DNA of 36,378 bases from Cytophagales bacterium. Lineage in GTDB: Bacteria > Bacteroidota > Bacteroidia > Cytophagales > Microscillaceae. The notes beneath the pieces are model-generated. The model was not told the DNA's origin, ran no database searches, and saw only the letters and a list, made by a program, of their open reading frames with translations. Location: NCBI GenBank assembly GCA_013298075.1, contig JAAFJG010000046.1, positions 1 to 36,378 on the forward strand, given 5' to 3'. This document shows, one piece after another, positions 4,225 through 30,935 of this stretch. Position 1 is the stretch's first letter. Every line of letters starts with the position of its first letter. The translations under genes and the position numbers were made by a program.

Positions 4225-4290
4225 CAACACATATTTTATTTTGATTTTTAAATTGATGTTTTTTTTGAAAATAAAACTTGATTTAGTCTT

Positions 4291-4491
4291 AAAAAATTTG
4301 TGTAAAAAAAGATTTTTTTTAAATATTTTTTTTGAATTGTCTCTAAATTTATTTGGAGGATATTATAAAATTCAATCGTTGGTTTTAATCGAAAATCTCT
4401 CCGTTTTTCAATTTGATATTTTTCTATATTTTGAAAATAAATGGCTATTTATAATAGAATAAAACTAGATCTGCGATACTTTTCCATGAAC
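4291..4491 (-). repeat. three-hairpin repeat, copy 1 (reverse, diverged)
   Basis: This fills most of the gap between mfd and the next gene. Compared with the copy at 30425-30638 it has the same order: AATTTGTGT-like end, the CCTCC-type hairpin (here TCTCTAAAT/ATTTGGAGG, about 4340-4359), the GGCT/AGCC-type hairpin (GGTT/AATC, about 4380-4390), then the ATGGC-type hairpin, whose second arm is missing. It ends with ATCTGCGATAC and CATGAAC. Several differences keep base pairing, by G.U wobble or a compensated pair, if the plus strand is the RNA. Confidence 0.65.
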
Positions 4492-4499
4492 TATTTTAT

Positions 4500-6588: not shown

Positions 6589-6783
6589 ATGGTTCAGGGA
6601 AATTATTGTGGATATAATTTTATTTAATATGAATAGAAATGGCATTTATGCCATTTATTTTGAGAATACAGAAATTTCGGCTAAAGCCAATGATTGAATT
6701 TTATATTATCCTCCAGATAAATCTGGAGGCAATTCAAAAAATACATTCCAAAAAAAATTTTCATTTTTCGCACAAATTTTCTA
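6589..6783 (+). repeat. three-hairpin repeat, copy 2 (forward, best preserved)
   Basis: This copy lies between the thiolase-like gene and uvrA. Hairpin 1 has arms AAATGGCA/TGCCATTT at 6637-6656. Hairpin 2 is GGCTAAAGCC at 6679-6688. Hairpin 3 has 9-bp perfect arms CCTCCAGAT/ATCTGGAGG at 6710-6729. It starts GGTTCAGGGAAATTATTG and ends TTTTTCGCACAAATTTTCT. Relative to copies 1, 3 and 4 it lacks about 20 bp between hairpins 1 and 2. It does not overlap the uvrA -7 box. Confidence 0.8.
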
Positions 6784-6812
6784 ACAACGATATTTTTTTC
6801 ATTAATTTTTAT

Positions 6813-9673: not shown

Positions 9674-9700
9674 TTTCTAACATTGAAAATTTTTTTGATT

Positions 9701-9799
9701 CTGTCCTAAATTTATTATAAAAAATTGATTATTTGAAATGAAGTCATTACATAGATTTGTTTTCAACATAAAAAACAATTTATAACGAATTTGGGACAG
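9701..9799. repeat. 99-bp imperfect palindromic element
   Basis: The left arm starting CTGTCCTAAATTTATTATAAA (9701) is the inverse of the right arm ending GAATTTGGGACAG (9776-9799). About 21 of 24 positions match, with a 3-nt gap. It sits between convergent uvrA and gpmI. It could act as a terminator, but the arm length and a related single arm at 17767 suggest a small mobile-element relic. Confidence 0.5.
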
Positions 9800-9813
9800 C
9801 ATCATCATTTTAT

Positions 9814-9906
9814 CTACAAATATACTTTCATATCTATCATCAAAACATCATCAATTTGAGGAAAAACACCTTGCCAAGTTACCAGTTCTTCTTCATAAAT
9901 TTTTTG
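9814..9906 (-). pseudogene. possible 3' remnant of an unknown gene
   Basis: The minus strand holds 30 open codons ending at TAG 9814-9816 and preceded by an in-frame stop at 9907. They read KIYEEELVTWQGVFPQ, then IDDVLMIDMKVYL. The residue make-up looks like protein rather than random AT-rich sequence, but there is no start codon and I recognise no family. It abuts the palindromic element, so it may be cargo or a gene end cut by an old insertion. This is an inference from composition only. Confidence 0.2.
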
Positions 9907-9937
9907 TTATTCAAGCATAGACTTGTTATATTTTCAA

Positions 9938-9972
9938 ATCTGCAATAATTTTCAATGAACTATTTTTTTGTA
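9938..9972 (-). repeat. possible end fragment of the three-hairpin repeat
   Basis: AAATCTGCAATAATTTTC followed by AATGAACTATTTT resembles the end of repeat copy 1 (ATCTGCGATAC, CATGAACTATTTT at 4469-4497) and the AGCAATAATTTCC end of copy 4. As with copy 1 it lies just downstream of a minus-strand gene. No hairpins remain here. Confidence 0.3.
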
Positions 9973-17790: not shown

Positions 17791-17839
17791 TATTAGTATA
17801 TGTTTTTGATGGCTGATATTATAATTTTTAGGTTCGTGA

Positions 17840-18185
17840 GCGATGGTAGCAAAGATAATTTTACTTTGTATGAATAAAAATAGCATCTATACCATTTATC
17901 TTGAGAATATATAAAAACCTCAATTTAGATAACAAAGAGATTTCGGCTGTATCCAACGATTGAATTTTATATTAGAGTTTTTTAAATGGTAGCCAAAAAT
18001 TGAGAAAAATCATTAAAAATTCGAGAAGAAAGAAAAAAAATCCGTGTTAATCCGCTAAATCCGTGTTATCTGTGTGCTAAAATCTCTTTCATTTAAAAAA
18101 TACTATTATCCTCCAGATAAATTTAGAGGACAATATAAAAGACACATTTGAAAAAAAATATTTATTTTGTGCGTCAATTTTTTAA
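17840..18185 (+). repeat. three-hairpin repeat, copy 3 (forward, interrupted)
   Basis: Together with the exporter promoter this accounts for the 621-bp gap at 17593-18213. Hairpin 1 is decayed (AGCATCTATACCAT, about 17882-17895). Hairpin 2 is GGCTGTATCC (17945-17954). Hairpin 3 is CCTCCAGAT/ATTTAGAGG (18110-18129). The end TTTTGTGCGTCAATTTTTTAAG matches copy 2. A 129-bp insertion separates hairpins 2 and 3. Confidence 0.65.
17975..18103. mobile_element. 129-bp MITE-like insertion inside repeat copy 3
   Basis: The ends GAGTTTTTTAAATG (17975-17988) and CATTTAAAAAATAC (18090-18103) are inverted repeats sharing an 11-bp core. TATTA is duplicated on both sides (17970-17974 and 18104-18108). In copy 2 the same site reads TTTTATATTATCCTCC without interruption, so the insertion boundaries are supported. 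Inside, 18040-18076 holds four degenerate 9-10-bp units of the ATCCGTGTT type. It is too short to encode a transposase, so it would have been moved in trans. Confidence 0.65.
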
Positions 18186-18213
18186 GAGGCAAGTCTTTCA
18201 TAAACTCAAAAAC

Positions 18214-21188: not shown

Positions 21189-21330
21189 TTAAGTCTTGGT
21201 AAAAAATTTGTCTTTTTAATATATTTTTCAAAAATTTGAGCAATAGTGAACACTAATATTGACTTTAATCGCTTTTTTTTATTTTAAAAATAAGTAGTTA
21301 TTCTAAATGATCATAATTTCGCAAAATTTT

Positions 21331-23556
21331 CTAAGAACTATTTTTTTCTGTCATATAAATAGTTCTTAGCATTTCTTCAATAAAAAGCAAAGTGTCTTCG
21401 ATTTCTGTTCGATTCATGAGTTGTAAATCTTTATAAATCAGAATACGTTTTTCATCCACTTCGATATTAAAATTCATATTTTTTTCTAAAAACATGATGA
21501 GTTCATCACTAAAGAAATTTCTAATGCTTTTTTCGTCTTCTCCTTTCAATAAATATTTTTCAGAGAAAAGCGGAAATTTATCAAAATTAATATCTCTATA
21601 ACCAACCGTTTGTAACACACGCGACATAAAACTTTCTTGTGTAAGCGTAAAATCAGGAATTTCATTGGGCAAATCAGTAACTATATATCCCGACAAAAAT
21701 TTATTTTGCTCACTCATTCTAATTCCTTTGGAGAAAAATACATCAAAAAATTCAATTAAAATTGGTTTATTTGAATTAAAAGCCGTTTCAAATTTTTTTG
21801 TAAATTTATTTTCTCTATATTTTATTTCATATCCTAACGCAAATTTAAAACCTTGTAATTTTGAGCCGTCATAAGTCATATTGGGTTTAAATTTGGTATT
21901 ATTAGTAGATGCCACGCCCCAAACGTCTAATTGTCGCTCTCCAAAAGTAGTTTTAACGCTTAATTGAGAGCCTTTTGGCATCATCACACGCGTGGCTAAT
22001 GGGTGTTTTGACAAAGATTTGTGGTCGTCCAAACCTTGCAATTCGATAGAACCATCTTGATTATCATAATTATAAGGGTGTTGATAAACCAATTCTAAAA
22101 AATTATAATCGACTAATCTACTTTTTGTAAAATCTAAGAAAATAGTAGCGTCTTTGGGTAATTTAGAAATAATTTTTTTCAAATGCAAATAATTAGAGGC
22201 TAACGCTTCGCTTCGAATCCCAATTTTATACCTATTTCTATCTTTCATATCTACAATTCTTGTATCAGATAAGAAAAATAAATTTTTAATACTCGTTTTT
22301 GCTCGTAAATAAATGATTAAACTACTGATAAATCCACCTAAAATTCCTACCAAAATTCCGCCCAAGAAAGTACAAATAATCGTAACTAAAAATATGGGTA
22401 ATTGCCCTGTACTATTAATATTTTTGAAAAGAGAAGGCGAAAAAAGTTTGTGAGCGTGGTAAATTAAAATGCCTGACAAAACCGTAATCGGAATATAACT
22501 AAAAATAGGAATCAATAAATAACCCGCACAAAAAATCAAAATGCCCACAATAAAACTCGATAAACGTGTTTTTGCACGACTATTTACATTCGTAGAACTA
22601 TATTCTAATGAAACTACCATCGGCAACGCTCCTATGATTGCGCCCAAACCATTGACCAAACCCAACACAGATAATTCTCTTTGTAGATTTGATTTTCTTC
22701 TATAAAAATCTAAAGCATCTATCGTTTTTAGATTTAAAATGGTTTCTAATGACCCTAAAATAGCAATCACAATCGCATAATACCAAGTTTTTGGGCTGCT
22801 GATTTGTGTTAAAAAATTAGTACTTTCCCACACATAAGGAATTGGTTGATAAGAAGTTGGTAAAAATAATTTTCTATATTCATCAGCGGTTGTAAAATTA
22901 AAATAAAAAGCCAATATCATACCTACCAAAACTGTTACCATTTCCGCAGGAATAATAGGCACAAAATCATATCGAATAGATGAAAATGAAAACATAATCG
23001 CCACACAAACCAATCCGACAATCAAAACTTCTACTTCCATATTCCAAATATAATAAGGAATATTCAATAAAATAAACCAAAAATCAAAACTTTTTGGCGT
23101 AAAACCTAATAAAAACGGAATTTGTTGTAAGATAATATATCCACCACAAACCGCCAACAATCCATACACAATCGCATCAGGTAACACATACAAAACTTCG
23201 CCTATTCGAAATAAACCTATCAAAAATTGTATCGCACCTGCTAAAATCAAAATAGTTAAAAGTTCTTTGTAGGAAGTCAGCCAAAAATTATCATTGCCTA
23301 AATATTGAAAAGATAAAGCAATTACCGCTACAATACTCAAAGAAGGCGTTTTGATAGTTACATGAGAACTTCCCAAAAAACTAACAATAATTCCGCCCAA
23401 ACTTGCGGTAATAATTCCTGAAAGCAAAGGCATATTAGAAGCCAAAGAAACGCCTAAACAAAAAGGCAATGCCAATAAAAAAACCATACCCGAAGCAAAA
23501 AAATCTGCTCTTAGATTTTGTAATCGAAATATAGAAGTTTTGTTATTTGTAGTCAT
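21331..23556 (-). CDS. SulP-family anion transporter with large C-terminal extension
   Basis: This 741-residue protein starts with a SulP transporter core: about 10-12 membrane segments up to residue 420. It carries FLLALPFCLGVSLASNMP near the N-terminus and KTIDALDFYRRKSNLQRELSV near residue 275, both SulP hallmarks. The substrate could be sulfate, bicarbonate or another anion. Residues about 430-490 are STAS-like (ATIFLDFTKSRLVDYNFLE). Then follow about 230 residues not normal for SulP, including LPDF-like DIPDFTL-type strand, GYRDINFDKFPLFSEKYLLK and GEDEKSIRNFFSDELI. I recall the pattern PxFSxxYxLxGxDExxVRxLF from unnamed bacterial proteins of unknown function. No carbonic anhydrase gene adjoins. 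It is divergent from the exonuclease gene. Confidence 0.85.
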   Translation of the reverse strand: MTTNNKTSIFRLQNLRADFFASGMVFLLALPFCLGVSLASNMPLLSGIITASLGGIIVSFLGSSHVTIKTPSLSIVAVIALSFQYLGNDNFWLTSYKELLTILILAGAIQFLIGLFRIGEVLYVLPDAIVYGLLAVCGGYIILQQIPFLLGFTPKSFDFWFILLNIPYYIWNMEVEVLIVGLVCVAIMFSFSSIRYDFVPIIPAEMVTVLVGMILAFYFNFTTADEYRKLFLPTSYQPIPYVWESTNFLTQISSPKTWYYAIVIAILGSLETILNLKTIDALDFYRRKSNLQRELSVLGLVNGLGAIIGALPMVVSLEYSSTNVNSRAKTRLSSFIVGILIFCAGYLLIPIFSYIPITVLSGILIYHAHKLFSPSLFKNINSTGQLPIFLVTIICTFLGGILVGILGGFISSLIIYLRAKTSIKNLFFLSDTRIVDMKDRNRYKIGIRSEALASNYLHLKKIISKLPKDATIFLDFTKSRLVDYNFLELVYQHPYNYDNQDGSIELQGLDDHKSLSKHPLATRVMMPKGSQLSVKTTFGERQLDVWGVASTNNTKFKPNMTYDGSKLQGFKFALGYEIKYRENKFTKKFETAFNSNKPILIEFFDVFFSKGIRMSEQNKFLSGYIVTDLPNEIPDFTLTQESFMSRVLQTVGYRDINFDKFPLFSEKYLLKGEDEKSIRNFFSDELIMFLEKNMNFNIEVDEKRILIYKDLQLMNRTEIEDTLLFIEEMLRTIYMTEKNSS

Positions 23557-30386: not shown

Positions 30387-30424
30387 ATTTTTAATGTTTT
30401 TTTTTATGTGTGATGTTTTGTTTT

Positions 30425-30638
30425 TAGAGAATTTGTGTGAAAAATGATTTTTTTAAAATTTTTTTTCTTGAATTGCCTCCAGATTTATCTGGAGGATAAT
30501 AAAAAATTCAATCATTGGCTTTAGCCGAAATCTCTGCATTTTTCAACTTAATATTTTTATATTTTCTAAATAAATGGCATAAATGCCATTTCTATTCATA
30601 TAGAATAAAATTATATCAGCAATAATTTCCTATCAACC
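30425..30638 (-). repeat. three-hairpin repeat, copy 4 (reverse, full)
   Basis: All three hairpins are intact: CCTCCAGAT/ATCTGGAGG at 30476-30495, GGCTTTAGCC at 30517-30526, and AAATGGCA/TGCCATTT at 30572-30591. The ends AATTTGTGTGAAAAATGA and AGCAATAATTTCC match copies 1 and 2. With copy 5 it fills the 549-bp gap at 30387-30935; I see no gene there. Confidence 0.8.
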
Positions 30639-30705: not shown

Positions 30706-30924
30706 TTTAGAAAAATATAAATTCGAGAAGTATAAAAATTTTGGCTAAAGCCATCTATTAAATTGTATATTATCCTCCAGATAAATCTGGAGGCAATTCA
30801 AAATACGATTCAAAAAAACAGCATTAATATTTTTAAATAGAAATAATATTTAGAACATTATGAAAATATGAAAAAAAAAATATTTCAAAAAAACATAATT
30901 TTATTTTTCGCATAAATTTTTAAG
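30706..30924 (+). repeat. three-hairpin repeat, copy 5 (forward, partial)
   Basis: It keeps hairpin 2 (GGCTAAAGCC, about 30743-30752) and a perfect hairpin 3 (30774-30793), and ends TTTTTCGCATAAATTTTTAAG. Hairpin 1 is missing. It contains a 75-bp expansion bounded by direct repeats TTCAAAAAAACA (30809-30820 and 30884-30895). Copies 4 and 5 face each other as an inverted pair. Confidence 0.7.
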
Positions 30925-30935
30925 AAATAAAAATC

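Follow-up and report, generated by a model that had tools for sequence, protein, structure and literature searches.

A family of dispersed intergenic elements in a Cytophagales bacterium with terminal inverted repeats around the 3' end and hairpins of a Y1 transposase gene

Five places in the window (the whole analysed stretch of 36,378 nucleotides, contig JAAFJG010000046.1 of the Cytophagales bacterium assembly GCA_013298075.1) carry one related sequence in both orientations, as had been proposed before. They belong to a family of about 300-400 copies, nearly all of which are intergenic. From left to right the element consists of a terminal inverted repeat (TIR), a hairpin (H1), the end of a Y1 transposase gene, a second hairpin (H2) that contains the stop codon, a third hairpin (H3) and a right TIR. 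The family is likely a chimeric MITE of the DDE type, in which the captured 3' flank of a Y1 gene is enclosed in ISL3-type ends and which was spread in trans. The parts are all of known kinds, and their combination appears to be new.

Copies in the window and in the genome

A profile was built from 23 copies, i.e., 22 from the rest of the genome and the window copy at 6591-6789. It matches all five window copies, with 183.8, 183.0, 103.4, 71.9+36.6 (two parts separated by an insertion) and 83.9 bits. The second copy (6591-6789, plus strand) has both ends and all three hairpins. Its left TIR (6591-6613, GGTTCAGGGAAATTATTGTGGAT, read from the sequence) is one base shorter than the consensus and is followed on the same strand by H1 (6637-6656, AAATGGCATTTATGCCATTT), a shortened remnant of the 3' coding end of a Y1 transposase (6659-6684, stop TAA at 6682-6684), H2 (6677-6690, TCGGCTAAAGCCAA) with the old stop codon within it, H3 (6710-6729, CCTCCAGATAAATCTGGAGG, then CAATTCAA) and the right TIR (6766-6789, reverse complement CGTTGTTAGAAAATTTGTGCGAAA). 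The remnant in this copy was read from the sequence, and the statistics given for it below are those of the family consensus.

The fourth copy (30419-30638, minus strand) is also two-ended and has H1, H2 and H3. In the third copy (17831-18190, plus strand) both ends are degenerate (10 and 9 mismatches), as are the hairpins, and the copy is interrupted between H2 and H3; it is long because an unrelated 129-bp element has inserted at 17975-18103 (plus strand, TIR GAGTTTTTTAAATG / GTATTTTTTAAATG, 5-bp duplication TATTA). The order of three hairpins that had been proposed for all copies is therefore complete in the second and fourth copies and degenerate in the third, but H1 is reduced in the first copy (4284-4492, minus strand), which is two-ended with the right TIR at 4284-4307 (8 mismatches) and the left TIR at 4469-4492 (5 mismatches), and it is missing from the fifth. 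The latter (30706-30926, plus strand) is truncated and has no left end; it comprises H2, H3, extra sequence and a degenerate right end that was placed by eye. The ends proposed as shared, CAATAATTTCC and TTTTTCGCACAAATTTT, are only the inner parts of 24-bp TIRs, and the true ends had been missed. A lone end resembling the right TIR (ATTTCGCAAAATTTTCTAAGAACT) was also seen in the window at 21316-21339, where it overlaps the stop of an ORF ending at 21331 (permease-like by eye).

In 1.065 Mb of the genome, 87 copies span at least 60 profile positions. This sample consists of nine large contigs chosen as known match-bearers, four of them read partway (C99 over no more than its first 80 kb), and extrapolation gives about 385 copies per genome or one per about 12 kb. 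Five copies in 36 kb are thus the ordinary density. Genome-wide, the H3 palindrome CCTCCAGATWWATCTGGAGG occurs at 294 sites with at most 2 mismatches, compared to 0 for the reversed control, and the joint TIR pattern at 273 sites (135+138) with at most 3 mismatches, compared to 0 and 1 in the controls. Chance similarity is therefore excluded, and the original observation is confirmed.

Hardly any copies lie in coding sequence: 100 of the 104 sampled copies overlap ORFs of at least 100 aa by less than 20%, where such ORFs make up 83.5% of the sequence. Convergent gaps hold 28 of 102 copies (106 of 614 gaps of at least 50 bp are of this type) and divergent gaps 11 of 102 (117 of 614). The bias to convergent gaps and the avoidance of divergent ones are compatible with selection against insertion at promoters. 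Both ends are kept in 44 of the 119 profile matches in 1.19 Mb, the right end only in 30, the left end only in 13 and neither in 25, while 7 are H3 fragments.

Terminal inverted repeats, target duplications and the search for a transposase

The ends and target duplications that the original prediction had asked for were both located. Intact copies are about 205 bp long, and the alignment of copies yields 24-bp TIRs starting with GGTTC (left GGTTCATGGGAAATTATTGCGGAT, right GGTTCTTAGGAAATTTGTGCGGAA). A perfect 8-bp target duplication flanks 13 of the 55 distinct two-ended places, compared to 0.28 expected from cross-pairing and to a maximum of 4 in 20,000 permutations. At 22 of the 55 places 7 or 8 of the 8 flank positions are identical, and the flanking 8-mers are 92% A+T. 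Perfect duplications of 9 or 10 bp were found at none of the 55 places, and the four two-ended copies in the window all lack a perfect 8-bp duplication.

Duplications of 8 bp at TIR-bounded copies are the mark of a DDE-type transposase, and the family is therefore a MITE of the DDE-transposase type. TIRs at both ends, a target duplication of fixed length, the lack of a transposase inside and a high copy number, in the hundreds, agree with the earlier proposal of a MITE moved in trans. In PMC3733652 and PMC3116915, bacterial MITEs such as ERIC, NEMIS/Correia, RUP and Nezha are portrayed as short, non-coding, TIR-bounded and intergenic elements with many copies, which are thought to be moved in trans. 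However, the interior here comes from a gene of different chemistry, a HUH/Y1 transposase, together with the hairpins of that gene.

ISL3 elements generally make 8-bp duplications. One ISL3 (PF01610) element from the same order (locus L184) has the ends GGTTCATCGTCAC(ATTCC/TTTAT)GTGAAA and the 8-bp duplication AATTTACA, and a second ISL3 locus (L173) has similar ends, GGTTCTTCTCCATTTTATGTGGAA / GGCTCTTCGCTAAAAAGTGTGGAA, without a duplication. Among the 20 ISL3 loci scanned, GGTTC ends with an 8-bp duplication were found in one element, covered by two overlapping loci, and GGGTC ends with an 8-bp duplication in one other; most loci have neither. The ends of the present family are probably ISL3-like, as they share the GGTTC start and the AT-rich 8-bp duplication with the one ISL3 element of the order.

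The two differ in that this genome has no ISL3 match and the sample no autonomous parent. A matching transposase was not found among the three Pfam families tested for a DDE enzyme: ISL3 (PF01610), IS1595 (PF12762) and IS256 (PF00872) gave 0 matches in the assembly, which is 97.9% complete. Therefore, the assignment to ISL3 is based on the similar ends and the duplication length, and the parent is lost, unassembled or of another family. A congener has one ISL3 gene, which is cut off at the contig end and whose locus has no matching ends. To search for the parent, the surroundings of unpaired TIRs were scanned for TIR pairs in 20 stretches, seven of which were partly read. No autonomous relative with the same TIRs was seen in the sampled stretches; the parent may have been lost, and its presence is not strictly required for a MITE. 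The sole TIR pair at a spacing typical of IS elements in the 20 stretches (L097) is a weak candidate, with 7 mismatches at one end and ORFs that are not transposase-like by eye; in another stretch (L082) two ends lie 4.3 kb apart.

Ends of this kind also enclose other interiors. In another genus of the same taxonomic family, an element of 116 bp combines similar ends (6 and 4 mismatches) with an unrelated interior and, by eye, the duplication ATCATTTT. A weaker resemblance (6 and 7 mismatches of 24), again with another interior, was seen in the own genome at C1:84300-84431 (L035 4300-4431). This is a 132-bp case of a degenerate element that is also found in the window at about 9700-9961, with a similar TIR on its right side (AGTTCATTGAAAATTATTGCAGAT, minus strand at 9961, 4 mismatches) and the palindrome arms CTGTCC / GGGACAG in its interior.

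The interior and the Y1 transposase gene

The interior of the element corresponds to the last approximately 15 codons, the stop codon and the flanking hairpins of an IS200-like Y1 (HUH) transposase. At offset 0 the consensus of 52 copies is identical to the Y1 gene of the same genome in 33 of the 45 bases before GGCTAA and in 25 of the final 30 bases. Among 300,000 AT-rich windows from the same sample the highest values were 31 and 23, respectively, and no other offset along the gene gave more than 17 of 30. The consensus tail translates to FENIEKYQFEKYRDFG followed by a stop, and the Y1 gene of another Bacteroidota member (L232) ends with FIEKYGLEIFKDFG and a stop. When single copies were compared to a profile of the protein tail, 9 of 53 exceeded 8 bits (4 of 1060 shuffles). 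The remnant is thus eroded in many copies and becomes clear in the consensus instead.

The genome has one match to Y1_Tnp (PF01797), a complete gene on contig 82 with a Pfam score of 94.1 bits. The NCBIfam model for IS200/IS605 gives 60.8 bits (cut-off 55) and the enzyme has a remote match to ISHp608 TnpA (E 7e-5). The protein has the motifs DHCH, WQ and YIKNQEEHH and ends with ...KYEFEKYKDLG, and its stop codon lies within GGCTAAAGCC, which is H2. Immediately upstream of the gene three repeat pieces adjoin in reverse orientation. Downstream there are two profile matches, of which the first is the end of the gene itself together with its H2 and H3 and the second a further repeat piece. Palindromes therefore flank a single-copy Y1 gene at contig 82, as in REP/REPIN systems.

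By its motifs the enzyme would be placed in TnpA-Y1 subclass 1.2. According to Quentin et al. (2018; PMC6006769), this subclass occurs in Cyanobacteria and Bacteroidetes at low copy number and without REPs, and the DHxH, WQ and Y---Q--HH motifs, the length of about 150 aa, the occurrence in Bacteroidota and the single copy here all agree with it. In contrast to the lack of REPs given there, hairpins adjoin many genes of the clade. To count them, genome contigs were scanned with a Y1 alignment and the best 79 of 449 loci, all from Bacteroidota judging by their titles, were taken, of which 74 have a full frame; the hairpin patterns were picked after reading 32 loci. DHxH, WQ and Y---Q--HH occur together in 65 of the 74 loci, partly by construction, as the scan peptides held WQ and QxxHH. 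Of these 74 loci from the best 79, 53 carry an H2-type hairpin at the stop codon (1 of 132 control windows) and 30 have GGAGGCAAWT within 170 bases (0 of 132); both are present in 25 loci (0 of 132). An upstream H2-type hairpin was seen in 31 of the 74, a count made without a control set, and the strict H1 pattern in 4 (0 of 132). In two Lacihabitans loci the order is, by eye, Y1-H2-H3-H1-H2-H3-H1.

This indicates that a Y1 subclass given as REP-less in that study often has flanking hairpins in Bacteroidota, which are a candidate substrate of the enzyme. In the open-licence literature no description was found of the element, of its combination of parts or of hairpins that adjoin genes of this subclass.

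By eye, H1 (AAATGGCATTTATGCCATTT) resembles hairpins of the type GAATAGGAATGYGGCTTTAGCCCATTC that adjoin some Y1 genes of other Bacteroidota. The ATG in H1 was considered as the Y1 start codon and rejected because of this resemblance to a third type of hairpin near some Y1 genes of other species; the overlap ATGCCATTTAT is probably a coincidence. H3 is conserved at 0.936 compared to 0.87-0.90 for the rest when 34 elements are chosen by their TIRs alone. With all matches the value is 0.966, and much of the excess therefore results from the way the copies were found, so that the high conservation was dropped as a sign of selection.

H3 units also form tandem arrays with a period of about 22-24 bp within or beside copies, e.g., at L165 12376-12563 (C24:92376-92563) and L139 17591-17736 (C88:37591-37736). 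Tandem GGAGGCAATTCA units were seen 3' of Y1 genes in other species as well (e.g., L193, L195 and L237). In another genus of the same family (G009, loci L053 and L074), which has four Y1_Tnp matches, copies of another hairpin (AGGCATAAATGCCT type) were seen; possibly this is another pair of a hairpin and Y1 genes.

Dispersal of the element and alternative explanations

To compare the dispersal with that in other genomes, 49 genomes with the Y1 clade were drawn via 50 of the best 79 of 449 Y1 loci. In 1.19 Mb of the own genome the H3 core TGGAGGCAATTCA was counted 84 times (control 0), compared to 0-9 times per genome in the 49 others; 34 of these have it, often in tandem clusters. The core represents the form of H3 found in this genome and in several species, and hairpins of different sequence fall outside the count. 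Exact H2-H3 pairs are found at 171 sites in the own genome and at none in both congeners, and 15 of the other 240 genomes in the order sample have 1-9, several of which are chance-like (control: one each in 3 genomes). The TIR pattern with at most 1 mismatch occurs at 134 sites in the own genome and at a single site in three genomes among the other 240 (the control matches once, in one genome). One of these three sites is the right end of the 116-bp element mentioned above. There are thus TIRs that lack the hairpins and hairpins that are not dispersed, and it is their combination that is found dispersed.

This points to a dispersal that goes with the TIRs, the hairpins having spread only through their enclosure in them. 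An element with ISL3-type ends would have captured the 3' flank of a Y1 gene once, and a DDE transposase, which was not found in the assembly, would then have spread the chimera in trans by staggered insertion. The hairpins would be mainly passengers. Against this explanation stand the many copies without an end, since only 44 of the 119 profile matches keep both, and a pure passenger status leaves the slightly better conservation of H3 and its tandem arrays unexplained. How REP-like hairpins spread is still unsettled, according to PMC8266576. The present genome is a natural case in which Y1 hairpins occupy hundreds of sites while their core motif is rare in 49 others, and this contrast coincides with the enclosure in DDE-type ends.

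Alternatively, the family could be of the REP/REPIN kind, with H2-H3 and H1 being spread via single-stranded DNA by the Y1 enzyme of contig 82, and the TIRs would then be incidental. REP/REPIN and TnpA-REP (RAYT) systems likewise have multicopy palindromes that also flank a single-copy Y1 gene, and the slightly better conservation of H3, its tandem units, the 25 of 119 matches with neither end, and one copy that folds as single-stranded DNA better than shuffled sequences (z -3.7) all favour this explanation. However, the two-ended copies carry TIRs and 8-bp target duplications, where IS200/IS605 members are described as lacking TIRs and larger duplications (PMC2817692), and the H3 core is not amplified in the 49 other genomes with the same Y1 clade. 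In addition, no GTAG/GTGG tag was seen by eye, as neither strand of the profile consensus contains the GT[AG]G tetranucleotide expected 5' of a hairpin, and the contig-82 enzyme scores below the cut-off of the NCBIfam REP transposase model (30.8 vs 80) while exceeding that of the IS200/IS605 model. We therefore consider this explanation unlikely. The earlier proposal of a REP type is right in part: the hairpins correspond to those that adjoin an IS200-like Y1 gene, but what has been dispersed is an element with TIRs and not a bare REP.

A dual element, inserted as a MITE by a DDE enzyme and with hairpins on which the Y1 enzyme also acts (by copying, H3 expansion or exchange between copies), is quite unlikely. 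Both signatures are at hand, i.e., the duplications and the Y1 gene with DHCH, WQ and YIKNQEEHH, and H3 arrays here as well as tandem GGAGGCAATTCA units in other species would fit. However, there is no direct sign of Y1 action on the dispersed copies, and replication slippage can produce the H3 arrays. The Y1 enzyme may nevertheless have a role. That two chemistries are united in one miniature element, with a DDE enzyme inserting it (8-bp duplications) and a resident Y1 enzyme of a subclass thought to be REP-less recognizing and copying or expanding the hairpins, is an idea to which we give little weight. If true, REP-like hairpins and MITEs would be linked mechanistically and the Y1 subclass would gain a DNA substrate.

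A structured RNA family had been proposed as well; this explanation, in which a regulator or terminator would have been dispersed because of its function, is highly improbable and was rejected. It is true that one copy has a stable RNA fold (z -3.0, 1 of 200 shuffles as good), that copies are fewer in divergent and more frequent in convergent gaps than the gap background, and that H3 shows a slight excess of covariation, with 6 double changes compared to 1.4 expected, which equals the maximum of 500 shuffles. However, the window has no Rfam match at the gathering score, and for one copy at E<=5 all 9 matches are below it. Compensatory changes are otherwise near shuffled levels (H1 5 vs 2.7, maximum 7; H2 1 vs 0.4; outer H3 stem 0 vs 0.5), no terminator-like site was found at the two copies scanned, the duplications show transposition and the exact H2-H3 match is missing from both congeners.

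Two further short families were observed in the 1.19 Mb of the own genome. A second MITE-like family of about 129 bp, with the TIR GAGTTTTTTAAATGG and ATCCGTGTTAATCCG-type repeats in its interior, has 19 end matches, 7 of which show an exact 5-bp duplication TATTA/TAATA. Its copies lie inside the third window copy (17975-18103), inside C77:12660-12969 and directly beside the piece C88:105949-106086. A third, palindromic family of about 110 bp with CTGTCCCAAATTCGTTGCAA ends, seen for example at L139 2058-2167 (C88:22058-22167) and on other sampled contigs, has 42 end matches with at most 4 mismatches.
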